From: a candidate division WOR-3 bacterium
Lineage (GTDB): Bacteria > Hydrothermota > Tepidihabitantia > SM23-42
DNA length: 64,000 nt
NCBI GenBank assembly: GCA_029858255.1
Contig: JAOUFJ010000010.1
Location: 1 to 64,000, forward strand
Direction: 5' to 3'
Shown here: positions 349 to 25,566 of the stretch, piece by piece
Numbering within the stretch: the stretch's first letter is position 1
Layout of the letters: each line of letters opens with the position of its first letter
Notes under the pieces: model-generated
Told to the model about the DNA's origin: nothing
Seen by the model: only the letters and a program-made list of their open reading frames with translations
Database searches by the model: none
Position numbers and translations under genes: made by a program

Positions 349-2853
349 ATGAAGAAACATCTAATGATCGTAATACTAGGTTTGCTCTTTGTGCCACTGC
401 TTTATGCTGGCAAGAATCAAGCGGCAGATAGATCGACAGCCCCCACAGCAAGAAAGATTACCGGAACTGAACTACGTGTAAAACCGTCCTCCAGGGTAGA
501 TGGTCCGTACTATCGGCCGGCAACACGTCAATCAGGAATCCTCTTCGTTGAAGACCCCGCAGCGTTGGGGCCGCCAAGCCCTGATCAATATTGGTCAGCA
601 GTGCTTGATAGCATAGTAGGCAGCGGTAATTATGGATGGTTTGCCGTGGACACCCTTCAAACAGCAAATGGACCAAGTCTCGCAATAATGCAAGGTTACG
701 ATCTGGTAATTTGGAATACTTACGATACATGGAATAACGCTCTGGGGCCCGCGCTCACCGCGACTGATCAGACGAATATCTCGAATTACATTACTGGCGG
801 AGGCAAGGTCTGGCTCATTGGCCAGGATATCCTGTGGAGCGGTGTGTCTGTTGCCTGGATGACGGCGAACTTCGAACTCCAGAGTGCAATACAGGATTAC
901 AATGGTGCATCAGGAGCAATTCCCTATCCGGTGGCTGGTGTGGCTGAACTGAGTGGTCTCGGTTTCTCTTTCCTCGTTGACTGGGGAAGTGATGTCTTTG
1001 CCGATGCTCTTACACCAACTGCGAACGCACACCACGTTATTCAGGACGTCGCTTTTCCTTCTTACTATCCGTCCATAGTCAGCAATGATTACACGACTTC
1101 TTTCTGGACCGTGGATGGCCGGAACCCGACTCCGTGGGCTGAATGGCAAGATATTGTCTACATCATGCTGGACAATTTTGGTGTCCTCGGAGCGGAAGAG
1201 TACGTCTGGGATTTTGAGGATGGATGGCAGGGATGGACGCATACCAATGGTGGTACGTTTCCCGCAGCTTGGGGTGTTCAAGCTGCCGCGCTTCATGATT
1301 CACTGCCGGATGCCGGTGATTCCACGATGTGGATCGATTCTGATGCCGCCGGTTCTGGTGGCGGATTGATCGCGGATACGGCTATATCACCGGCCGTGGT
1401 ACCGCCCAATGGTTTGGAAAAGTACAAATGGGGTATCTTCCACTATGGTGGCGGTGGTTCGTACTTGGACGAGATGGATGTTGGGATCAAGTACTATGCG
1501 AGTAGTGCTTGGACTACGGTCCAGCTGGTACATTATGCCACCGGTACGGTCACGGGTCCGGGCTGGGATTCAGTAGATGTGTCAGCTTATGCCGGTGCGG
1601 ACAGTATTCAGGCGTGGTTTTATTTTACCGACTTAGGCACCTGGGGTTATTATGCGGCTTTTGACAATGTCGGCCTCTATCCAGCACCAGTGGAAGATGT
1701 TGGAGTAAACGCAATCATTGAGCCGGTCGGTACTTACTCCATTAACGATGTCGTTACACCGCAAGCGCAAGTAAGGAATTACGGCGATCTTGAAGAGAGT
1801 TTCCCCGTTACCTTCACAATGACTCGCAATGCTCTGCTGGTTTATGCAGACACAGTTATGATGACCCTCGCGAGTGGTGCTGTTGACACCGCTGTCTTCG
1901 AGGACTATACGTTTACTCAGGGTGGAGCCTATAGCATTGTCAGTTACTCGGAACTGGTCGGCGATCAAAATCCAGCTAATGATACAGTGTTTGCCACCGT
2001 CAGCGTTTTCGAATGGATAGTAGACTTCGAGTCTAACAATGGCGGTTTTGTTGCTGACCCTGCTTCCGGTGCTTGGCAATGGGGAGTTCCGACTTCTGGT
2101 CCGGGCGCCGCTCATTCCGGGACACAACTCTGGGCAACGGTACTTGCTGGCAACTATAGCAATAGTGCCAACTGGAGACTTACTTCGCAGGACGACTATA
2201 CTGCTACCATGAACAATCCACACATCCTCTTCTTCCACTGGTACGATATCGAAGACTATTATGATGGTGGTAATGTCAAATATTCTACTGATAATGGCAG
2301 TACCTGGCCGCTACTCCATCCAGTTGGTGGCTATGACGATGTTGCCTATTCCGGCAATAGTGGCATTCCCGCTGAGAGTTGCTTTACTGGCATGCAGGCA
2401 ACTTGGCAGGTAGAGGATATTATTATTCCGGTGAATGTAGGGCAGACTTTCAGACTTCGCTTCCACTTTGGGACTGATGCTTCTGTATACTATTCTGGTT
2501 GGTACATTGATGATCTTGCCGGTATCGGTCTTACCTATGTCGGCATTGCTGAGGGACCGGGAACGCAGAGCATCGCGAAATTCGGTTTTGCCCCCACGAT
2601 GCCCACGATTACCAACGAACGGCAACCGATATCCTACACAATAACTATGCCTGGCCATGTCTCCTTGAAGATCTATGACCGCATCGGCAGGCTGGTGCAG
2701 ACACTCGTTGACGAACATCAAACCGCCGGCGAGAAATCTTTGGTCTGGAACGGCACGGACATCAACAACCGGGCCGTCGCGAACGGTGTGTACTTCCTGC
2801 AACTAGAAGCCGAAAACGAAGTCGCCTTCCGGAAACTCGTTATCGTTCGATAG
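349..2853 (+). CDS. Large secreted protein with C-terminal sorting domain, function unknown
   Basis: An 834-residue protein with a clear signal peptide (MKKHLMIVILGLLFVPLLYA, cleavage near residue 20-26). Residues about 60-280 form an alpha/beta region (FVEDP, YDLVIWNTYD, GGGKVWLIGQDI) resembling the flavodoxin-like module often seen in immune-inhibitor-A/M6-type exoproteins. Two jelly-roll-like segments begin VWDFEDGWQGW (about 284) and WIVDFESNNGGF (about 557), with a CARDB-like Ig segment between (VGVNAIIEPVG, VRNYG). The last 75 residues are a FlgD-Ig/T9SS-type module ending RKLVIVR. No catalytic HExxH was found, so it looks like a surface or adhesion protein rather than an M6 peptidase. 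The ATG at 349 follows GAGGGAG at good spacing. Confidence 0.8.
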   Translation: MKKHLMIVILGLLFVPLLYAGKNQAADRSTAPTARKITGTELRVKPSSRVDGPYYRPATRQSGILFVEDPAALGPPSPDQYWSAVLDSIVGSGNYGWFAVDTLQTANGPSLAIMQGYDLVIWNTYDTWNNALGPALTATDQTNISNYITGGGKVWLIGQDILWSGVSVAWMTANFELQSAIQDYNGASGAIPYPVAGVAELSGLGFSFLVDWGSDVFADALTPTANAHHVIQDVAFPSYYPSIVSNDYTTSFWTVDGRNPTPWAEWQDIVYIMLDNFGVLGAEEYVWDFEDGWQGWTHTNGGTFPAAWGVQAAALHDSLPDAGDSTMWIDSDAAGSGGGLIADTAISPAVVPPNGLEKYKWGIFHYGGGGSYLDEMDVGIKYYASSAWTTVQLVHYATGTVTGPGWDSVDVSAYAGADSIQAWFYFTDLGTWGYYAAFDNVGLYPAPVEDVGVNAIIEPVGTYSINDVVTPQAQVRNYGDLEESFPVTFTMTRNALLVYADTVMMTLASGAVDTAVFEDYTFTQGGAYSIVSYSELVGDQNPANDTVFATVSVFEWIVDFESNNGGFVADPASGAWQWGVPTSGPGAAHSGTQLWATVLAGNYSNSANWRLTSQDDYTATMNNPHILFFHWYDIEDYYDGGNVKYSTDNGSTWPLLHPVGGYDDVAYSGNSGIPAESCFTGMQATWQVEDIIIPVNVGQTFRLRFHFGTDASVYYSGWYIDDLAGIGLTYVGIAEGPGTQSIAKFGFAPTMPTITNERQPISYTITMPGHVSLKIYDRIGRLVQTLVDEHQTAGEKSLVWNGTDINNRAVANGVYFLQLEAENEVAFRKLVIVR

Positions 2854-14944: not shown

Positions 14945-16621
14945 ATGCTTGATTTGATGGACGAAAGAACAAGAAAAGAGCTGAAACGCGTCCTCGGGAA
15001 ACTTCCCGAACGCGTTGACATTCTCTACTTCACCCAGGAAAATGCCTGTCCGGCATGCAAGGACCAGCAGCGATTACTCGAAGAGATCGCCAGCCATACC
15101 GACAAGATTCGATTGAAGGTCTTCGATTTCATACGCGATAGCGAGCAAGTCACACAATACCGCATAGACAAAATACCCGCGACCGCGATCATCGGTAAGA
15201 AGGACTATGGTATTCGATTTTATGGCCTGACTGCCGGTTACGAATTTCAATCATTGATCGAAGCAGTGATCATGGTGGCAACAGGAAAATCCGGGATCTC
15301 TCCAGAATTCGAAGAAACGATACGCCATATCGATAGTGCTGTACATATCGAAGTGATGACTACCCTTACGTGCCCGTACTGCCCGCGTGCAGTACATGCG
15401 GCCATGCAGCTCGCCATGGTCAACGATAACATCCGCGCCGACATGGTCGAAAGCGCTGAATTTCCCCAGCTCGCACAACGCTACGATGTTACAGGTACGC
15501 CCAAGACAATGATCAACGAAACTCACTCGTTTGTTGGTGCCCTGCCCGCAGACCGGGTATATCTTGAGGTCCTGAAAGCGGTCAACCCCGAGGAATACAA
15601 ACGTATTGAACAAACCATAAGGGAAACCCACGGTCAGCGCCATATACGCAAAGCACAAACCGAGCATGAGTACGACGTCATCATCGTTGGTGGCGGGACA
15701 GCAGCAATGTCAGCAGCGATATACGCGGCGCGCAAATCGCTGGATGTACTGCTCCTAGCAAAAGACCTTGGCGGTCAGATCAACTACACGGCTCTCGTCG
15801 AGAATTATCTCGGTCTGCCCAACATAGACGGCAAGGAGATGGTCGAACAATTCGTCATGCACATGGAACAATTCTCTATTGCCGAAGCCCTGGGCGCCGC
15901 TGCTGTGAAAGTGGAAAAAAAGGGCAATCGCTTCACCGTAATAACCGATGACAAGAAACAATACACGGCAAAATCAGTTATCTACTGTGCAGGTAAACAA
16001 TACCGCAAGTTGGGGATACCTGGTGAAGACCGTTTCATGGGGCGCGGTGTCGCTTTCTGCGCGACATGTGATGCGCCTCTGTACAAAGACAAAAAAGTCG
16101 CCGTCGTGGGCGGCGGAAATTCGGCGTTCACATCGGCACGGGATCTGTTGAATTTCGCTTCCGAAATACATTTGATCCACCGGCGTGATACATTCCCTGC
16201 CGATAGTGAACTGGTCAAGCAGGTCAGAGGTGCGAAAAATGTCACGGTCCAGACGAACACCGTTGTACGAGAGATCCTTGGCGAGACAAAACTCACCGGC
16301 GTCAGGCTGCAATCTACAAGCGGAGAGCAACATGAAGACCTGCAGGTCGACGGGGTCTTTTTGGAGATCGGTCTCATGCCCAATACGCAGCCAGTCAAAG
16401 AGCTGGTCAAGCTCAACGAATACGGAGAGATAGAGACAACTAGGGAGAACACGACATCGGTACCCGGCCTCTTCGCGGCCGGTGACGCAACCGACTTGCC
16501 CGAAAAGCAGATTATAATCGCGGCGGGTGAGGGCGCGAAGGCCGCGCTTACCGCCTACAACTATCTGATCGAGAAAAAACTCATTACACAAAAAGCCACG
16601 GCTGATGCCTGGCAGCGATAA
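14945..16621 (+). CDS. Fused protein disulfide oxidoreductase - thioredoxin reductase
   Basis: 558 residues. The N-terminal 220 residues are a double thioredoxin fold of the glutaredoxin-like/PDO type with two CxxC sites: CPAC (about 35-38) and CPYC (about 146-149), plus cis-Pro loops KIPAT and GTPKT. The C-terminal 310 residues are a low-Mr thioredoxin reductase: FAD motif VIIVGGGTAAMSAA, redox centre CATC, NAD(P)H motif VAVVGGGNSAFTSA, and LFAAGDATD. The layout recalls AhpF, but AhpF keeps only one active CxxC in its N-terminal domain. Here both are intact, as in archaeal PDO. It should pass electrons from NAD(P)H via FAD and CATC to CPYC/CPAC and on to disulfides or a peroxiredoxin. Confidence 0.92.
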   Translation: MLDLMDERTRKELKRVLGKLPERVDILYFTQENACPACKDQQRLLEEIASHTDKIRLKVFDFIRDSEQVTQYRIDKIPATAIIGKKDYGIRFYGLTAGYEFQSLIEAVIMVATGKSGISPEFEETIRHIDSAVHIEVMTTLTCPYCPRAVHAAMQLAMVNDNIRADMVESAEFPQLAQRYDVTGTPKTMINETHSFVGALPADRVYLEVLKAVNPEEYKRIEQTIRETHGQRHIRKAQTEHEYDVIIVGGGTAAMSAAIYAARKSLDVLLLAKDLGGQINYTALVENYLGLPNIDGKEMVEQFVMHMEQFSIAEALGAAAVKVEKKGNRFTVITDDKKQYTAKSVIYCAGKQYRKLGIPGEDRFMGRGVAFCATCDAPLYKDKKVAVVGGGNSAFTSARDLLNFASEIHLIHRRDTFPADSELVKQVRGAKNVTVQTNTVVREILGETKLTGVRLQSTSGEQHEDLQVDGVFLEIGLMPNTQPVKELVKLNEYGEIETTRENTTSVPGLFAAGDATDLPEKQIIIAAGEGAKAALTAYNYLIEKKLITQKATADAWQR

Positions 16622-17865: not shown

Positions 17866-18609
17866 CTAATCCAGAATAGTCAGCAGCGCCATTACAACGA
17901 TCCCCAGCAGGATTGCCGAGAACTGCCATATTGAATTTGACACCTTGACCTCCTGCTGAAGTTCTGGTATTAAATCCGGACCTGCAATGTAAATAAAACC
18001 TCCTGCGGTAATCGGTAGCAAAAATCGGGCAAAACTTTCAAATCGTTCACCGATCAGCAGCGTGATAACCGCGCCGATGACCGCCATCACGGAAGCCAAT
18101 AAATTAAAGAACAACGCTTTCCTCACGGACAGACCGCCGTGGATGAGAATGCTAAAATCGCCTATCTCCTGTGGTATTTCGTGAAGCACGATTGCCAGCG
18201 TGGTAGTAATCCCTATCGGAATACTGACCATGAAACTCGCCGCGATGAGCATACCGTCGATCAGGTTATGCCCCGCGTCTCCAACCAGGTTCATGCTCAC
18301 AACAGGTTTTATTCGTTTTTCCTCCGCCGCGCTGCCGACATGACGCCAGCGAATGAATTTCTCCAGAGCGAAGAACATCAGGAATCCGCTGATCACCAGA
18401 AGCGAAGTTGTAAGGTTCGCGCCGATCTTCTCGAAAGATTCAGGCAGCAGGTGGATGAAAACATCACCAAACAGGGCACCGACGGCAAAGGCAACGAGGA
18501 ATATCAGCATCTTCTGCAGCCGCTGCCGGTTAAGGGATAACGTGACTATGCCAACCAGGGAAAGAAGGCTGACCAGGATCACACTCCCGAGGGTTAAAAC
18601 GAGCACCAT
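17866..18609 (-). CDS. ZIP-family metal transporter
   Basis: 247 residues with about eight hydrophobic segments. The two ZIP metal-site helices are present: DAGHNLIDGMLIAASF (HNxxDG) and ALVIVLHEIPQEIGDFSIL-type (LHEIPQEIGDF). It should move zinc or another divalent cation into the cytoplasm. It starts 1 base after the CDF gene stop, so the two genes are probably one transcript. Confidence 0.93.
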   Translation of the reverse strand: MVLVLTLGSVILVSLLSLVGIVTLSLNRQRLQKMLIFLVAFAVGALFGDVFIHLLPESFEKIGANLTTSLLVISGFLMFFALEKFIRWRHVGSAAEEKRIKPVVSMNLVGDAGHNLIDGMLIAASFMVSIPIGITTTLAIVLHEIPQEIGDFSILIHGGLSVRKALFFNLLASVMAVIGAVITLLIGERFESFARFLLPITAGGFIYIAGPDLIPELQQEVKVSNSIWQFSAILLGIVVMALLTILD

Positions 18610-18610
18610 A

Positions 18611-19561
18611 CTAGTGATTATGTTCCGGGATCAACGGGCAGGTTGCGGAATCCCCTTCACAAAGGATCTGTACGGTCGATTCAATTATGTGGTATCTGCG
18701 AGCGAGATAACTGTTGATCTTCGATATTAGACGGTTCTGCGCTTCGGCACTTTGTTGTTTATCATCGAGCAAGATATGAGCAGAAAACACCAGCATGTCC
18801 GCCGTGATCGTCCACAGGTGCGCGTGTTCTAGTTGCTTGATCTCGGGAAATTTCTTTTTCAAGTCCTGTATGATTATATCGACGTTCAAGCCGGTGGGCG
18901 CCATCTCAAGCAGTATTTTTGCCGACTCCTTCAGAATACCCCAGGCCCAGAAAACGATCACTAGAGAAATCCCGATGCTTACGAGTGGATCGATTATGTT
19001 CCACTTTGTGTAATATATGATTATTGCCGCAACTACGATACCCACTGAAGAGGCGGCATCGGCGATCATATGATAGAACACACCTTTGATGTTTATGTTC
19101 CGCTTATGGCTGCCATGTAGTATGAATATGCTGACGATATTCACGACCAGACCGACGAGCGCAATGAGCAACATATCCAAGGCCAGGATATCCTCAGGGT
19201 TGATGATCCTTTCGATCGCTTCATATATTATAAGACCACCGACCGCGAGCAAGAAGAGCCCGTTTATGAACGCGGCGAGTATCTCCGCACGGTACAGACC
19301 AAAGGTGCGATGGTGACACGGGGGCCGTGCCGCAATGATGATCGCCACGAGACTAATCGTGATCGCAAAGGCGTGTGTGAACATGTGACCGGCATCGCTG
19401 ATCAAAGCTATGCTCCGTGACAGAATGCCGCCGACGATCTCGACCACCATGACCACAGCCGTGATCACCAGCGAGATGGTCAGCTTCTTCTTCTCCACGT
19501 CACGGAATTCGAATATCCGTTCAGAGAAAGAGTGTTTATGGTTGTGCTCGTGGGGTGCCAC
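18611..19561 (-). CDS. Cation diffusion facilitator (CzcD/ZitB-like)
   Basis: 316 residues with six membrane segments. His-rich start (APHEHNHKHS) and end (PEHNH). Transport-site motifs SDAGHMFTHAFA (TM2; HxxxD type) and MIADAASSVGIVV (TM5), followed by a C-terminal cytoplasmic ferredoxin-like domain (HLWTITADMLVFSAHILL). It exports zinc or similar ions. GTG is the start codon, 5 bases after a TAGAAT -10, so the message appears leaderless. It is paired with the ZIP gene, coupling export and import of one metal in one operon. Confidence 0.93.
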   Translation of the reverse strand: MAPHEHNHKHSFSERIFEFRDVEKKKLTISLVITAVVMVVEIVGGILSRSIALISDAGHMFTHAFAITISLVAIIIAARPPCHHRTFGLYRAEILAAFINGLFLLAVGGLIIYEAIERIINPEDILALDMLLIALVGLVVNIVSIFILHGSHKRNINIKGVFYHMIADAASSVGIVVAAIIIYYTKWNIIDPLVSIGISLVIVFWAWGILKESAKILLEMAPTGLNVDIIIQDLKKKFPEIKQLEHAHLWTITADMLVFSAHILLDDKQQSAEAQNRLISKINSYLARRYHIIESTVQILCEGDSATCPLIPEHNH

Positions 19562-19607: not shown

Positions 19608-20285
19608 TCATACACGCATCTTGTAAAATCCCTCGCCGAATTTGTAACCGGCAAGGATGCCGTCATTTCTAACGCGATTGCGCACGCGCTTCTGCCAGTC
19701 CGGCAACTGACCCAGTTGACTTTTGTGCATCGAAATCGCCTTTATTTTTTTCTTGTAGGTCGTAGTAATATCGATGACATGATTGCTTTTCTCGGTGATT
19801 CCCAGCAGCAACTCCTTAGGACGGTGAGGTTTCAAACCGATCTCCAGTAAGAATGGATAGAAGTGCCAGTCTCGTGCGATCATGATGCCCTCGATAACGG
19901 CCTGGGCCGTTGCCCGGTGATCAGGATGAAAGTAACGGGACCACGGGTCATGGGTGACTATTGTGTAGGGTTTGAGTTTGCGGATGAGCGCGGCCAGTTC
20001 AAGTTTGAGTGTTTTGATGCTGGAAATCTCACCATCGGGATGACGTAGAAAGATGCTCCGATCAACACCGAGGTATCGTGCTGCTTTCCTCGCTTCCTTT
20101 TCTCTTTTCTCCGCGACAAGTAGCGGTGAAGCATTCCTGTTCCACGTGCCTTTTTCACCGCATGATACAATAACATTGTATACGCTGCCTTTTTTTGCCC
20201 AAAGCGCGATGCTACCGCCGCACGAAAGTTCCGGATCATCCGGGTGAGCCATGATGATCAGTCTATTTTTCGATGACTCTTCCAT
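19608..20285 (-). CDS. PIG-L/LmbE-family zinc deacetylase
   Basis: 225 residues from ATG 20285 (MEESSKNRLIIMAHPDDPEL), overlapping the glycosyltransferase gene by 23 bases; longer starts upstream would run deep into that gene. The zinc and catalytic motif AHPDDPELSCGG is at the N-terminus and HDPWSRYFHPDHRA supplies the third ligand. These enzymes remove N-acetyl from GlcNAc-containing substrates (MshB, BshB, PIG-L). As the last gene after a GT4 transferase resembling MshA/BshA, it may deacetylate the product of that transferase, as in mycothiol or bacillithiol synthesis. A surface-glycan role is the alternative. Confidence 0.9.
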   Translation of the reverse strand: MEESSKNRLIIMAHPDDPELSCGGSIALWAKKGSVYNVIVSCGEKGTWNRNASPLLVAEKREKEARKAARYLGVDRSIFLRHPDGEISSIKTLKLELAALIRKLKPYTIVTHDPWSRYFHPDHRATAQAVIEGIMIARDWHFYPFLLEIGLKPHRPKELLLGITEKSNHVIDITTTYKKKIKAISMHKSQLGQLPDWQKRVRNRVRNDGILAGYKFGEGFYKMRV

Positions 20286-21330
20286 ATAGCCTCTTGTATT
20301 TGCGGGCGATGTTGGACCAGTCATACGCCAGTGCCTTTTTCCTGCCATTACTCCCCATTCTTTGCCGCAGACCATGTTCCCGCGAAAGTGTCTCAATTGC
20401 TCTGGCGAGATTGCGCACGCCCATCTTGACCAAAATGCCGGCGTCACTGCCCACGGTCTCCTGCAAACCCGTATGGGAGAATCCTACTACCGGCCGCCCC
20501 GAGGCCATTGCCTCGAGCCCTACGAGACCGAATGATTCATAATGTGACGGAACAACGAGCATGGCAGTCTTGTTGTAGTATTCGGCAAGTCTGTCATGCT
20601 GTACCTGTCCCACAAATTCAACCGGCACACCATCAGCATAGGTTTCTATGCTCGTGAGATTGCCGGCACCTTTGGATGGTCCTCCGACCAGGGTCAGGCT
20701 AATTTCATTTCTCACCTGTCTCAAGGCGTCGATCAGAAAATGTATGCCCTTTATCGGATCGACCCTGCCCACAAACAGAATATTCTTGTGGCCGTTCCTG
20801 CTGGGTGTAAAACGCCGCGTATCAACGCCGTGCGGTATCGCGACCACCCTGACATCCGGGTAGAGCGCTCTGATCGCCAGGGATTCCTGTTCGGTGGGTG
20901 AGACAACTAGATCGCAAGCCCGCATAATCTCTTCTTCTATCTCAATTCTGGTCCGGTCCTGGCGGATTGTCTTAAGCACCTCCACCGTATGCATTGTGTG
21001 CAGCCAGGGAATTTTCAGGACGCGATGTATATGCAATCCGACGACACCCGACGACCAATAATGAGTATGCATAAGACCATATTGATGGATACCATGACGG
21101 TTGATTATCTCTTCGGCGAATCGATTTGTATCACGCTCTTCAACATGTATAACCTTCAGACGCGGCCCCATTTCTATCGTGCGCTCCCTGCCTCGAACGA
21201 AAATGTCGACGTCGGAAACTCGCGCGAGGCGCTCGTACAGACTGCGGATAACGATACTCATACCACCCGATTTACCCGAACCAACCGGTGCCATGGGTGA
21301 AGAGTGGTATGACACGACACAAATCCTCAT
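20263..21330 (-). CDS. GT4 glycosyltransferase (MshA/BshA-like)
   Basis: 355 residues, GT-B fold. The N-terminus VVSYHSSPMAPVGSGKSGGM resembles MshA, where the HTSP...GGMN segment contacts acceptor and donor. The C-terminal domain has NILFVGRVDPIKGIHFL, VPSHYESFGLVGLEAMA (ExxxxxxxE donor motif) and ASGRPVVG. It probably transfers a sugar, perhaps GlcNAc, from UDP-sugar to a small acceptor. It overlaps the acyltransferase gene upstream by 4 bases and the deacetylase downstream by 23, so translation is likely coupled along the operon. Confidence 0.9.
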   Translation of the reverse strand: MRICVVSYHSSPMAPVGSGKSGGMSIVIRSLYERLARVSDVDIFVRGRERTIEMGPRLKVIHVEERDTNRFAEEIINRHGIHQYGLMHTHYWSSGVVGLHIHRVLKIPWLHTMHTVEVLKTIRQDRTRIEIEEEIMRACDLVVSPTEQESLAIRALYPDVRVVAIPHGVDTRRFTPSRNGHKNILFVGRVDPIKGIHFLIDALRQVRNEISLTLVGGPSKGAGNLTSIETYADGVPVEFVGQVQHDRLAEYYNKTAMLVVPSHYESFGLVGLEAMASGRPVVGFSHTGLQETVGSDAGILVKMGVRNLARAIETLSREHGLRQRMGSNGRKKALAYDWSNIARKYKRLYGRVIEK

Positions 21331-22265
21331 CTCGTCACCCTCACCGTATAGCGCTCCTTTGCGCCAAAACGATATTTGTAATCTTCATCACCTCGCAGAA
21401 AATCATAATACTCGTAACCCTCGCTGATTGACGATTGAATATCGCGCGCGATAGTCATTATGCCGGGCGATATACGACGATATTCGGGATCGAATCCCAT
21501 ATTATAAAGAAAGACACGCCCCTTCAATACAAAAGCCAATATGGCACCAACCGGATTGCAGTCGAAAACCAACGCGCGGAATCGCAGCCAGCCGTTTCGG
21601 TCAAATCTCTCGGTTAATTCTTTGAAAAACGCCATAATACCAGGCGTCAGAAATTCTTCTTTGCTGTTATCCGATACAGTCATTAATCTGAACAAGATAT
21701 CAATATCTGCGCTTTTGACATCGCGAATGACCGTACCGTTTATTCTCCTCATCTTACGGCGCAGCTCATGGCGCGATTTACTGTCGAGTTCACGGAGATA
21801 ATCATCCCACGTTCGCGGTAATTCGAGCAGAGGGCAAAGATCTTTCTTCTCTACAGAAACTTCAGGCAGTTGATCCTTTAATCCAACGACCAATGCACTA
21901 TTGACTTCAAGGGGGAACAGGTCGAGCCCCAGTTCGTTTTGTCGCACGAATTCGGCGAGAGTCTCCGTGATCCTATTCTCGTGGCCAGGCAGACAGAGTA
22001 TATCATTCAGATCAGTAACCCTCTCATCACCAACCAATCTCACTACATCACGAGTAACCGTTGCGGCCAATATTCCGACAACAACACCGCCATCTCGAAA
22101 CACAATGATCTCGGGATCGAACCCTAAAAGATTGCTCGCTAATACAGAGAACCACTCATAGCTGGTAAAAGGCAATGGATTCTTTGCCTTCTTGAACAGC
22201 TCTTTCCAAACCTTTTCTATCGTCGAGAGCCGTTCAACTTTCAATTCGCAGGCGCGACCCGACAT
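21327..22265 (-). CDS. CelD/BioF2-type (Fem-like) acyltransferase
   Basis: 312 residues of the Acetyltransf_6 (CelD/BcsL) double-GNAT fold. The typical central segment is TWDDYLRELDSKSRHELRRKMRRI, and a GNAT core follows (FRALVFDCNPVGAILAFVLKGRVFLYNMGFDPEYRRISPG). Relatives transfer acyl or, in the Fem branch, aminoacyl groups. In this operon it could acylate or aminoacylate the amino-sugar made by the GT4 and PIG-L enzymes; this is inference. It overlaps the upstream GNAT gene by 32 bases. Confidence 0.8.
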   Translation of the reverse strand: MSGRACELKVERLSTIEKVWKELFKKAKNPLPFTSYEWFSVLASNLLGFDPEIIVFRDGGVVVGILAATVTRDVVRLVGDERVTDLNDILCLPGHENRITETLAEFVRQNELGLDLFPLEVNSALVVGLKDQLPEVSVEKKDLCPLLELPRTWDDYLRELDSKSRHELRRKMRRINGTVIRDVKSADIDILFRLMTVSDNSKEEFLTPGIMAFFKELTERFDRNGWLRFRALVFDCNPVGAILAFVLKGRVFLYNMGFDPEYRRISPGIMTIARDIQSSISEGYEYYDFLRGDEDYKYRFGAKERYTVRVTR

Positions 22266-22815
22266 ATCTATCCCCTGACTTGATTTCCCATGATTTCCAA
22301 CCCATCAAATTACGGTAATGCACTGTCTCATAGAGCTTAAAACCACAGCGTTCGATTCCTCTGTTCGAACTCAGATTGTCTTTGGTCGAAAAAATCATTG
22401 CTCGCCCATAGGATTCGTTCCTGAAATATTCTGTTGCCTTTGTTATCAGATGCGGATAGATCCCCTTGCCGCGAAAACCGGGACGTGTATAGGCGTCGTA
22501 GAGATATACTTCCTTCTGTTCCACGTCCAGCCAATCATCGATCTCACCCACCTGACATTCTTTTGTTGTCGCAAAGAGATAGGCAACAAGGATTCCTTGA
22601 TGATGGGCGACAAAAATCTTGTCACCGCGTGCGCTACGTGCCGCAACGGCCGAAGCATTCAGTATGTCTACCTCGGAAGGTCTGTCACAGATGGATACCT
22701 TGACCGTAACTGAAGGCCTAACAATGGAAATCTCGCCCTTTAAGTCAATTGCATACATACACAGTATTTCCCTCTTGTTGACCAGAGCGAGACCCCCAAA
22801 TCTTTTTATCTTCAA
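22234..22815 (-). CDS. GNAT-family N-acyltransferase
   Basis: 193 residues. The acetyl-CoA-binding P-loop is seen as TRPGFRGKGIYPHLI (R/Q-x-x-G-x-G/A), followed by FSTKDNLSSNRGIERCGF typical of the GNAT C-terminal half. The N-terminal 60 residues are less conserved. It is the second gene of the MBL-GNAT-CelD-GT4-PIG-L operon, overlapping the hydrolase stop by 4 bases. The substrate is unknown; MshD-type acetylation of a thiol precursor is one possibility. Confidence 0.8.
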   Translation of the reverse strand: MKIKRFGGLALVNKREILCMYAIDLKGEISIVRPSVTVKVSICDRPSEVDILNASAVAARSARGDKIFVAHHQGILVAYLFATTKECQVGEIDDWLDVEQKEVYLYDAYTRPGFRGKGIYPHLITKATEYFRNESYGRAMIFSTKDNLSSNRGIERCGFKLYETVHYRNLMGWKSWEIKSGDRYVGSRLRIES

Positions 22816-23351
22816 TATAACGACCTCTCTTTGCCGATCGTTGTCTTCGGACCATGCCCAGGATAGACCATTGTCTCGTCGGGCAGAACCATCAATTTCT
22901 CGCGTATGCTGCTGAGGATTGTTTTCTCATCACCCCCCGGGAATGATGTGTTACCCGGACCATTGGGAAATAAAGTATCACCTGAAATGAGCACATCTTT
23001 TATGAGAAAACAACAGCTCCCCGGCGTATGACCTGGAGTGTGAGTCACCCCTAACTTATCACGACCGAATTCGATAACCTGGCCGTCCTGGATCTCGTCA
23101 TCGAAGCCAGAAACCCAGTCCAGCTTATGGATCGCGGCCCGCGTGCCCAGGGCTTCTTTTACTTCCCGGAGCGCGGTTATGTGATCGAAGTGCCGGTGTG
23201 TTGCGAGGATGATCACAATCTCAAGTTCACGAACTGCATTCAATATTTTTTGCGCCTCATCACCCGGATCGACTATGATACCGGTCCCTTCCGATTTGAG
23301 AATGTAGCAGTTATTCTCTAGTCCACCGACAACAATTCTCTCTATTTCCAT
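22812..23351 (-). CDS. Metallo-beta-lactamase-fold hydrolase (glyoxalase II-like)
   Basis: 179 residues, about the length of single-domain MBL hydrolases. The dinuclear metal site is clear: THRHFDH (THxHxDH), HTPGHTPGS, SGDTLF and PGHGP. Such enzymes hydrolyse thioesters, act as persulfide dioxygenases, or cleave S-conjugates. Leading an operon with GT4 and PIG-L genes, a thiol-linked role is attractive but unproven. The ATG at 23351 has no Shine-Dalgarno; it lies inside the last codons of a 36-codon micro-ORF. Confidence 0.9.
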   Translation of the reverse strand: MEIERIVVGGLENNCYILKSEGTGIIVDPGDEAQKILNAVRELEIVIILATHRHFDHITALREVKEALGTRAAIHKLDWVSGFDDEIQDGQVIEFGRDKLGVTHTPGHTPGSCCFLIKDVLISGDTLFPNGPGNTSFPGGDEKTILSSIREKLMVLPDETMVYPGHGPKTTIGKERSLY

Positions 23352-23452
23352 ATGCTTTTCAAATATTCAGTGCGACCAGATGTGGATTTCTTCTCTCGAT
23401 GAATAGAAAAACCATATTTCCCATGCCAAAATCGGTTTAAAAATGCCTCCAT
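23342..23452 (-). CDS. 36-residue leaderless micro-ORF overlapping the MBL start
   Basis: Starts MEAFLNRFWHGKYGFSIH and ends with YLKSIWK; net positive and aromatic. Its ATG is 5 bases after a TATAAT with TTGACT upstream, the geometry of other leaderless starts here. Its TAG (23344-23342) falls just after the MBL ATG (23351-23349), a 10-base overlap. Because the MBL start has no Shine-Dalgarno, ribosomes finishing this peptide could restart there. No family recognised. Confidence 0.55.
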   Translation of the reverse strand: MEAFLNRFWHGKYGFSIHREKKSTSGRTEYLKSIWK

Positions 23453-23533: not shown

Positions 23534-24373
23534 CTAACCGGCGTCCGCAGAGACAATTGCGTAAACATTCCGTTCATATTCCACTCTTGAACCGCGGTAC
23601 ATCCGCAAGGACGGCGGACGGTGTAAGAATCCATGCTGCACGACCATCTTGAGCGCCGCGGTATTGATGCACGGTATGCCGACGGTCAGATCCTTGTTGA
23701 TGTGCTTCGTGCATATTTTAGCGATCAAATCTCCGGCGGCACTCTCGTTTTCCGCAACCATCGGACCGATATGCAGCATCTCATTAGCCCGTTCGCGAAT
23801 CACGGCATAGGCTGCAATACCCTCCCGGTGTACAGTATACGTGGTGTGCGGATGTCTTTTGATCAAATGCTCCAGAAACATGCTGCGGTCGATCCCGGTT
23901 TTTTCAAGGTCGAAGCGTAGTATTCCTTCAATATCTTCCGTACAACCTGCTTTTCGCTCCTCCATATGAGTCCGGTCTTTTGCTGCCGGGCGGACAAACC
24001 TCATCGAGAGATACTTGTCCTTGAAGCCAAGGATCCGGTAGGTCTGTACCGCTTTGAATACGCCATCGAGCTCAATCGTCTTAGCTCCTTTGCGGTCGAG
24101 ATGATCAATAACATCTTCCATCAGCTTCACACCGATACCCCTGCCCCGCATTTCTTTTTGCACGATCAAGTTACCCAGGAAAGATTGGTTACCATAACTG
24201 ACACTGGTAACAATTCCTGCCCGTCTACCATCCTGCCGTGCAACATAGCATCCCGCAGGATCGAGGAATAAAAATCGTTCAAAATCCTCCTCAAGATGAC
24301 CCCATCCTTCTATGTCGGTCAGTGATTTGGCGAATGCTATGTCGGACTGGCCCATCTGCTTTACCGTGATCAT
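23534..24373 (-). CDS. Two-domain GNAT acetyltransferase (YitH/Acetyltransf_18 type)
   Basis: 279 residues. The N-terminal GNAT domain has GNLIVQKEMRGRGIGVKLM (acetyl-CoA P-loop RGRGIG) and TYRILGFK. The C-terminal half (ILRFDLEKTGIDRSMFL, IAAYAVIRERANEMLHIGPM) matches the second domain of YitH-like proteins. The start at 24373 overlaps the M20 stop (ATGA) and has GGGGGAAG upstream; an ATG at 24430 lies inside the M20 gene and is unlikely. Substrate unknown. Co-transcribed with the peptidase. Confidence 0.85.
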   Translation of the reverse strand: MITVKQMGQSDIAFAKSLTDIEGWGHLEEDFERFLFLDPAGCYVARQDGRRAGIVTSVSYGNQSFLGNLIVQKEMRGRGIGVKLMEDVIDHLDRKGAKTIELDGVFKAVQTYRILGFKDKYLSMRFVRPAAKDRTHMEERKAGCTEDIEGILRFDLEKTGIDRSMFLEHLIKRHPHTTYTVHREGIAAYAVIRERANEMLHIGPMVAENESAAGDLIAKICTKHINKDLTVGIPCINTAALKMVVQHGFLHRPPSLRMYRGSRVEYERNVYAIVSADAG

Positions 24374-25566
24374 GATGTCTTCCCCCTTGATAACAAAATG
24401 AACGCGGTCAGCGCGTAAATCGACGCGCAATCAATCACACGTGCAACCTCGACGAACTCGTCTGGATGATGGGCCATCGCAAGCAACCCCGGACCATACG
24501 CATAAGCTGGAATACCATTCTGAAGATAGTAGCGTATCTCCAGCAATCCAGGGCACATATTGAATGCCGGCTTTTGACCGGCGACTTCGATGACACTGAG
24601 CGCCAGTGCATTCACCAGATCATTGTCTCGAGAAATTCCGGCAGATTTGCCTTCCTGCAGAATCTCCAGGTCAATATTCATACCGGCTTTCCGGAACCTA
24701 TTGAAGATGGCAAGTAAATTCCTCTTTTCCTCAACAAAATTCTCCTCGGGGTTGATCCTCCTCTCGAGCGAGAAAGTGCATGAACCGGGAACAACATTGA
24801 AATTAGTGCCACAATGGCAGATCCCTCCCAGCATCAGTATTGAATTCTCAGATTCCCCCGGTAAAATGCTATAACTCGTTTTTCTCTTTTCGACGGTGTT
24901 TTTGTGTTCGAGCAAAGCATTTGACAAACTGACCATCTGTTCGAATGCGTTGACTCCATCTTTTTGCAGAACCACATGCACGGGCTTGCCCTCGATCTTA
25001 ACCAACACACTGAGCGCACCGCGACAAGCATTCCAGATCGTGCCGCTCGTCGGTTCAGGCATGAGCATGCCGACACAATGTTTTTTGTTTATATAACCCT
25101 TCTCAAAAAGATACCCTGCGCCCGCCTTGCCGCCGGTCTCTTCATCCGGAACGATTACCAGACAGATCTGACCGTCCAGTCCAGCACCGAGAAGCTGCAG
25201 CGCGCGTACCGCATAGACCATCGCGGCAAGTCCGGCTTTCATATCTGCGGCGCCCCGACCGTGAAGTCTACCGGCCTGGACATAGGGCTTGAATTGTCTT
25301 GCATCGGTTCCCGGAACAACGTCGTAGTGAGCGTGAAAATACAATTTCCTCTTACCCTTTCCGTACGACGAAAGAAGACTATAACGCGGGTAGGCGCGGT
25401 CATCGAGGCCAGGTACCTTGACGATCTGCGAACTCATGCCGAATCGTTTCAGACGATTCGATATTAGATCAATACAGTCCGAGTAGCGTGCGCCCGGTGG
25501 ATTCTCGGTGGGGATCCTGATCAACTCCTTGGTGAACCCGAGTATCTCACTGCTCAGTGCACGCAT
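24370..25566 (-). CDS. M20-family metallopeptidase (ArgE/DapE-like)
   Basis: 398 residues from ATG 25566 (MRALSSEILGFTKELIRIPT), which fits the usual M20 start; an open stretch upstream to 25710 is basic and unlike the family. Metal and catalytic motifs: FHAHYDVVPGTD, GRGAADMKAGLAAM, PDEETGGKAGAGY (general base Glu), LMPEPTSGTIW, and a late MAHHPDEFVE. The dimerisation domain lies between about 190 and 300. It probably deacylates an N-acyl amino acid or dipeptide. Specificity cannot be told from sequence. Confidence 0.9.
   Translation of the reverse strand: MRALSSEILGFTKELIRIPTENPPGARYSDCIDLISNRLKRFGMSSQIVKVPGLDDRAYPRYSLLSSYGKGKRKLYFHAHYDVVPGTDARQFKPYVQAGRLHGRGAADMKAGLAAMVYAVRALQLLGAGLDGQICLVIVPDEETGGKAGAGYLFEKGYINKKHCVGMLMPEPTSGTIWNACRGALSVLVKIEGKPVHVVLQKDGVNAFEQMVSLSNALLEHKNTVEKRKTSYSILPGESENSILMLGGICHCGTNFNVVPGSCTFSLERRINPEENFVEEKRNLLAIFNRFRKAGMNIDLEILQEGKSAGISRDNDLVNALALSVIEVAGQKPAFNMCPGLLEIRYYLQNGIPAYAYGPGLLAMAHHPDEFVEVARVIDCASIYALTAFILLSRGKTS

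Follow-up and report, generated by a model that had tools for sequence, protein, structure and literature searches.

A conserved five-gene cassette of candidate division WOR-3 bacteria that may follow mycothiol-type logic

A 64,000-nucleotide stretch of contig JAOUFJ010000010.1 (assembly GCA_029858255.1; hereafter the window) carries five overlapping genes on the minus strand, running from 23351 down to 19608 in the order metallo-beta-lactamase (MBL) fold hydrolase, GNAT acetyltransferase, Fem/CelD-like transferase, GT4 glycosyltransferase and PIG-L deacetylase. The arrangement is a conserved cassette, and we tentatively read it as a pathway that uses the logic of mycothiol synthesis to make a small amino-sugar conjugate, with the Fem-type enzyme at the cysteine-ligase step (probability of roughly 0.48). 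The source genome is a metagenome-assembled genome (MAG) of candidate division WOR-3/Stahlbacteria with a size of 2.72 Mb and a completeness of 96.6%, its group being judged from its relatives.

The proposed synthesis would take place in the cytoplasm and would combine reactions of the mycothiol and bacillithiol type. The GT4 would transfer N-acetylglucosamine from UDP-N-acetylglucosamine onto a small anionic acceptor; for the Chloroflexota-type copies this is probably inositol phosphate, and in WOR-3 it is perhaps altered. The PIG-L enzyme would then take off the acetyl group and free the glucosamine amine, to which the Fem-type enzyme would join an amino acid, most likely cysteine from Cys-tRNA, in the place of MshC or BshC. 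The GNAT would acetylate the conjugate in the manner of MshD, and the MBL would hydrolyze adducts of the thiol so formed, either thioesters or persulfides. As predictions, glycosylation and deacetylation are well supported by the enzyme families and their conserved residues; that the residue is cysteine, that it is delivered by a tRNA and that the product is a thiol is what we infer. The enzyme classes themselves are firmly assigned, and the genes are listed below with their family matches in brackets.

22812..23351, minus strand: MBL-fold hydrolase, short and glyoxalase-II-like, 179 aa (PF00753, 8.4e-28)
22234..22815, minus strand: single-domain GNAT acetyltransferase, 193 aa, whose TTG start overlaps the MBL stop (PF00583, 2.6e-8)
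21327..22265, minus strand: Fem/CelD-like double-GNAT transferase, 312 aa, proposed amino-acid transferase (PF13480, 2.2e-26)
20263..21330, minus strand: GT4 glycosyltransferase of the MshA/sucrose-phosphate-synthase clade, 355 aa (PF00534, 9.7e-31)
19608..20285 (start approximate), minus strand: PIG-L (LmbE-like) zinc N-deacetylase, 225 aa from ATG (PF02585, 1.2e-28)

In gene order, the four overlaps between neighbors in the window measure 4, about 32, 4 and about 20-23 nt. The listed PIG-L open reading frame (ORF; GTG start, 279 aa) is over-long, and conservation favors an ATG at about 20285 (225 aa); the last overlap is -20 if counted from the first aligned PIG-L residue and 23 nt with this ATG. 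The cassette stops at 23351, and 23352-23452 holds none of its genes.

A Fem homologue was present in 24 of the 147 genomes of the WOR-3 phylum, the source genome counted. The full five-gene order, which a sequence-only reading of the window had picked out, is confirmed in the window and was found in 15 other WOR-3 genomes from four families (by database codes). The overlaps of MBL/GNAT (-4), Fem/GT4 (-4) and GT4/PIG-L (-20) were identical in all 15 loci, and that of GNAT/Fem (-32) in 12 of them. Because the same order and near-identical overlaps return in 15 other loci, the arrangement goes beyond chance. Occasional decay of the cassette is suggested by three further loci, since L048 is without the GNAT, L049 (2408-4706) has a broken Fem reading frame and no GT4, and the Fem gene of L050 (7133-9160) is a short remnant.

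Outside WOR-3, a PIG-L profile scan of named genomes returned loci from a Deltaproteobacterium (L070), a Nitrospinaceae MAG (L071), a Chloroflexi MAG (L072) and Dehalococcoidia (L075 and L087). PIG-L adjoins a GT4 in all five, and a Fem gene also stands beside them in all except L087. A related Fem-GT4-PIG-L core is common to several little-studied phyla, covering at least four phylum-level groups. Within Chloroflexota, 110 of 301 genomes had a Fem homologue (E 1e-15), which is not a cassette count because lower-scoring Fem homologues stand alone or elsewhere. Thirty-six Fem loci were picked non-randomly from across this list. Of these, 35 had a called Fem ORF, which the GT4 directly adjoined in 20 loci, mostly those with higher Fem scores. 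The three core genes (Fem, GT4 and PIG-L) are linked and co-inherited; their pairwise distances correlated with an r of 0.93-0.95 in the 34 loci that have the full trio (raw distances, shared species history included). No description of the cassette was found in the searchable literature, where most subscription journals are missing. A 2018 survey of complete genomes reported the full mshA-D set in Actinobacteria only (PMC6282198). A lone Fem homologue of Chloroflexota (L199, 9358-11493, minus strand) adjoins a rhodanese-looking protein (sulfurtransferase).

The best NCBIfam family of the window GT4 was MshA (TIGR03449), matched over the full length with 169 bits, while the cut-off of 462.5 was not reached; the GT4s of L070 and L075 gave 345 and 370 bits, also under this value. 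Against BshA (TIGR03999) only 67 bits were obtained (cut-off 273.7 not reached). A profile of the cassette GT4s retrieved MshA first from the PDB (395 bits), then sucrose-phosphate synthase, with BshA at 131 bits. In a tree of 66 sequences, the cassette GT4s and MshA formed one clade with a support of 97/93, and sequences resembling sucrose-phosphate synthase came next. A presumed BshA from Bacteroidota (Flammeovirgaceae) fell outside this MshA, cassette and sucrose-phosphate synthase grouping, as did every other GT4 sampled. Inside the MshA group, the cassette GT4s were not clearly a single clade (45/34) and formed separate lineages outside MshA. An exopolysaccharide-type or BshA-type GT4 is ruled out by the tree, and on sequence grounds common ancestry with MshA can be regarded as demonstrated. 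Where the sequence-only reading had called the GT4 MshA/BshA-like, the MshA half held and the BshA half did not, and grouping with exopolysaccharide transferases, which would have refuted that reading, was not seen.

Most of the acceptor-phosphate site is kept. In MshA, K78, Y110, T134 and R154 hold the inositol phosphate. R154, Y110 and T134 (MshA numbering) were kept in 41 of 41 cassette GT4 rows, the acceptor-site residues Y91, H114, T115 and R128 of the window GT4 are conserved, and K78 was present in 22 of the 26 rows outside the WOR-3 group; these 26 rows include L051, a divergent gene of the WOR-3 phylum. Sucrose-phosphate synthase binds the phosphate of sucrose-6-phosphate through Arg105 and Arg178 (PMC7264703). 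These residues align with MshA K78 and R154, respectively, the chain numbering in our alignment being shifted by 3. Sucrose-phosphate synthase (Tll1590) resembles the cassette enzyme in its phosphate-binding arginine equivalent to R154, and in the tree it comes next after the clade that unites the cassette GT4s with MshA; however, the neighbors of the cassette GT4, a deacetylase and a Fem enzyme, misfit sucrose synthesis.

Of the five genes, PIG-L is conserved best (57-90% identity within WOR-3), and the motifs HPDD and HPDHR were kept in every aligned sequence. The best NCBIfam matches were BshB1 (TIGR04001, 98.6 bits, cut-off 182.5) and then BshB2 (69.6 bits, cut-off 195.25), neither cut-off being reached, and MshB (TIGR03445) gave 42.7 bits with a cut-off of 224.35, likewise not reached. 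The nearest solved chains were archaeal diacetylchitobiose deacetylases, followed by LnmX and Thermus TT1542.

The Fem protein was modeled with AlphaFold2 (AF2) at a pLDDT of 95.3 and a pTM of 0.91, and the model shows a double-GNAT Fem fold. A sequence search against solved structures (PDB) gave nothing useful, and matches came from the fold search alone: Foldseek returned Sbb17 (E 4e-12)/Sba18 and FemX as best hits with TM scores of 0.66-0.69. Sbb17 and Sba18 are described as aminoacyl-tRNA-dependent peptide synthases and were solved with streptothrisamine, the precursor of an amino-sugar antibiotic. According to a review, the Fem-like Orf11 transfers glycine from Gly-tRNA to streptothrisamine, FemX uses Lys305, and DhpH-C uses Lys329 adjoining Phe328 (PMC12945691). 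In our alignment of 37 homologues, K297 was invariant, and nearly every sequence has Tyr or Phe directly before it (Y296-K297 in the window). This conserved aromatic-Lys pair near the C terminus may correspond to the one around Lys305 of FemX and to Phe328-Lys329 of DhpH-C. The likeness to Fem-type transferases (FemX as well as Orf11 and Sbb17/Sba18 of streptothricin-related pathways) lies in the fold, whereas the identity is 12-15% and the cassette protein belongs to PF13480, not clearly to PF02388 (FemAB). The latter was weakly matched by 13 of the 37 homologues (best 2.6e-5) and not by the window copy, and some homologues weakly matched the ATE_C profile. Fold, context and the absence of known ligases together point to an amino-acid transferase in the place of the cysteine ligase. 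The sequence-only reading had suggested such a role; the fold match and the amino-sugar precedent speak for it, and cysteine as the transferred residue, a tRNA donor, a thiol product and recycling of S-conjugates by the MBL stay predictions.

MshC exceeded its cut-off (TIGR03447, 485.1) in none of the six carriers searched (the source genome, L070, L071, L072, L075 and L087), and the positive control, an Arthrobacter genome, returned it. The best match to the MshC profile in the source genome was the gene of the cysteinyl-tRNA synthetase (CysRS; 255.7 bits), and the weaker matches in the carriers were CysRS-like, two of them in genome G152. BshC (TIGR03998) was found in 0 of 25 carriers, several of which are single-contig genomes, and was recovered in the Flammeovirgaceae genome used as a positive control. 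An MshC hidden as a second CysRS was rejected for the source genome, which has one full-length CysRS with an intact ORF of 494 aa despite a reported in-frame TGA. The ligase absence noted in the window alone by the sequence-only reading holds in these genome searches as well, for MshC at its cut-off. Since the genomes are mostly metagenome-assembled, a genuine mycothiol or bacillithiol pathway could in principle have lost its ligase to incomplete assemblies. This explanation is largely refuted by the repeated absence, which includes single-contig genomes, by the finding of just one normal-length CysRS-like gene in the source genome, and by MshA and BshB cut-offs that were not reached; we regard it as highly improbable.

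The cassette resembles mycothiol biosynthesis (MshA-MshD, Actinobacteria) in a GT4 within the MshA clade with most acceptor-site residues, in a PIG-L deacetylase and an acetyltransferase and, in two Chloroflexota copies, in a tandem GNAT with MshD as the best family. It differs in that the carriers tested have no MshC above the cut-off, the GT4 lies outside MshA and under its cut-off, the deacetylase is BshB/Dac-like and not MshB-like, a Fem-type enzyme is added, the genes form one overlapping operon, and the WOR-3 GT4 is without the K78 loop. Bacillithiol synthesis (BshA, BshB, BshC) shares the chemical logic and the best PIG-L match, to BshB1 or BshB2, but the cassette differs from it: its GT4 falls at a great distance from BshA in the tree, its 25 searched carriers have no BshC, and the Fem-type enzyme is again extra. 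Because none of the defining cut-offs of either pathway was reached, the cassette was filed under neither. The thiol-cofactor operon that the sequence-only reading had proposed is supported in part: the GT4 placement stands, the mycothiol-type logic is plausible, and membership in either pathway as defined does not hold.

The MBL carries the motifs THRHFDH, HTPGH, SGDT and YPGHG, with the metal-site motifs present. It gave 92.9 bits against glyoxalase II (GloB, TIGR03413; cut-off 200.8 not reached), and its nearest solved chains were a hydroxyacylglutathione hydrolase and then persulfide dioxygenases, both of which are enzymes acting on thiol adducts. It is the first gene in all full WOR-3 copies and also adjoins the cassette in L070, L072 and L178, which makes three phyla in all. 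The GNAT, kept in the full WOR-3 copies and in L071, was modeled with a pLDDT of 91 (AF2) in a general GNAT fold. The window GNAT had no NCBIfam match, so the MshD cut-off (TIGR03448, 163.1) was not reached; it was rejected as an MshD member, as MshD was one of many matches in an unspecific fold search and the profile search of the PDB was weak. The Chloroflexota loci L072 and L177 each include a tandem GNAT that scores best against MshD (96 and 100 bits, under the cut-off). Beside the cassette of L072 stand two tandem DinB-superfamily proteins (1237-2563, minus strand) with mycothiol transferase as the best NCBIfam family (99 and 89 bits, under the cut-off); such neighbors were sought in the other cassette loci and none were found.

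A different product is conceivable, since the amino acid is not fixed by anything in the sequence and glycine is the residue moved by the characterized Fem-type enzyme that acts on an amino sugar (PMC12945691). In this case, the GT4 and PIG-L would form a glucosaminyl-polyol, the Fem enzyme would attach an acyl group or an amino acid other than cysteine, and the MBL and GNAT would trim or cap a non-thiol conjugate, e.g., a solute or signal. The fact that most Chloroflexota copies are without an adjoining MBL would agree with it. However, the GT4 is placed with MshA, the MBL resembles glyoxalase II and persulfide dioxygenase in three phyla, and MshD-like and mycothiol-transferase-like neighbors occur (both in L072, MshD-like in L177), which leaves a non-thiol conjugate rather unlikely.

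A surface-glycan or glycolipid operon, in which the GT4 would extend a lipid-linked sugar or a phosphatidylinositol-like lipid, PIG-L would deacetylate it as in glycosylphosphatidylinositol (GPI) synthesis, and Fem and GNAT would acylate, draws on two general parallels: GPI synthesis also begins with a GT4 and a PIG-L enzyme, and PF13480/CelD proteins are frequent among exopolysaccharide genes. Yet the cassette GT4 stands apart from exopolysaccharide and the other sampled GT4s, and no recurring flippase, polymerase, sugar-phosphate transferase or other glycosyltransferase was found beside the cassette in 43 loci. GT4, PIG-L, GNAT and MBL are without a strongly hydrophobic stretch; among the five window proteins, a 19-residue hydropathy peak above 1.6 occurs in Fem alone, where the model has strands and no helix. 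We consider this explanation improbable.

Several observations weigh against the mycothiol-logic pathway. The loop that bears K78 is missing in 15 of 15 WOR-3 GT4 rows, and its absence implies that the acceptor there may differ from the MshA-type one. MshD-like and transferase-like neighbors are confined to few Chloroflexota copies, with none beside the WOR-3 copies, and no curated mycothiol or bacillithiol cut-off was reached by any member tested. The Fem fold is probably general to PF13480 proteins. Ino1 (inositol-phosphate synthase, PF01658) was found in 24 of 25 carriers; it is, however, near-universal regardless of the cassette (140 of 147 WOR-3 and 268 of 301 Chloroflexota genomes), which shows availability and not linkage, and it was dropped as an unspecific marker of carriers. 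It was not found in the source assembly (G000), probably because of an assembly gap. A known thiol pathway elsewhere, which would have spoken against the sequence-only reading, was checked in part: beside the searches for MshC and BshC, E. coli GshA, GshB and YbdK had no match in the searched 1.2 of 2.37 Mb, about half, of a closed sister genome. Glutathione or ergothioneine pathways may still exist in the carriers. In six Chloroflexota genomes (G342, G405, G195, G176, G163 and G204), Ino1 lies about 15-17 kb downstream of Fem on the same strand and contig, which could be plain synteny.

The more specific claim, namely that at least four phylum-level groups possess a novel mycothiol-like thiol route in which a Fem-type transferase and Cys-tRNA replace the ATP-dependent ligase, is doubtful, though it would be of consequence. 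If the cassette makes a thiol, Dehalococcoidia, WOR-3 and others would have a cofactor pathway of their own, overlooked since it lacks the cysteine ligases normally expected, and a tRNA-dependent cysteine step would be a new link between translation charging and redox metabolism.

The genes flanking the cassette (CDF transporter, tandem GNAT, M20 peptidase and AlkZ-like) were matched in genomes of the same genus only. The tandem GNAT (23537-24430, minus strand; PF00583 and PF18014) lies directly upstream and is retained in seven genomes of the genus; an MshD match was not found for it. Right after the cassette in the genus follow two adjoining metal-transporter genes (17866-19561, minus strand), a CDF (PF01545) and, by eye, a ZIP-like one; the PIG-L and MBL families consist of zinc enzymes. 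Further away, at 14945-16621 on the plus strand, the window encodes a protein similar to thioredoxin reductase; CPAC and CPYC motifs in its N-terminal half recall a thioredoxin/glutaredoxin domain pair. Five other genomes of the genus have such a gene about as far away.

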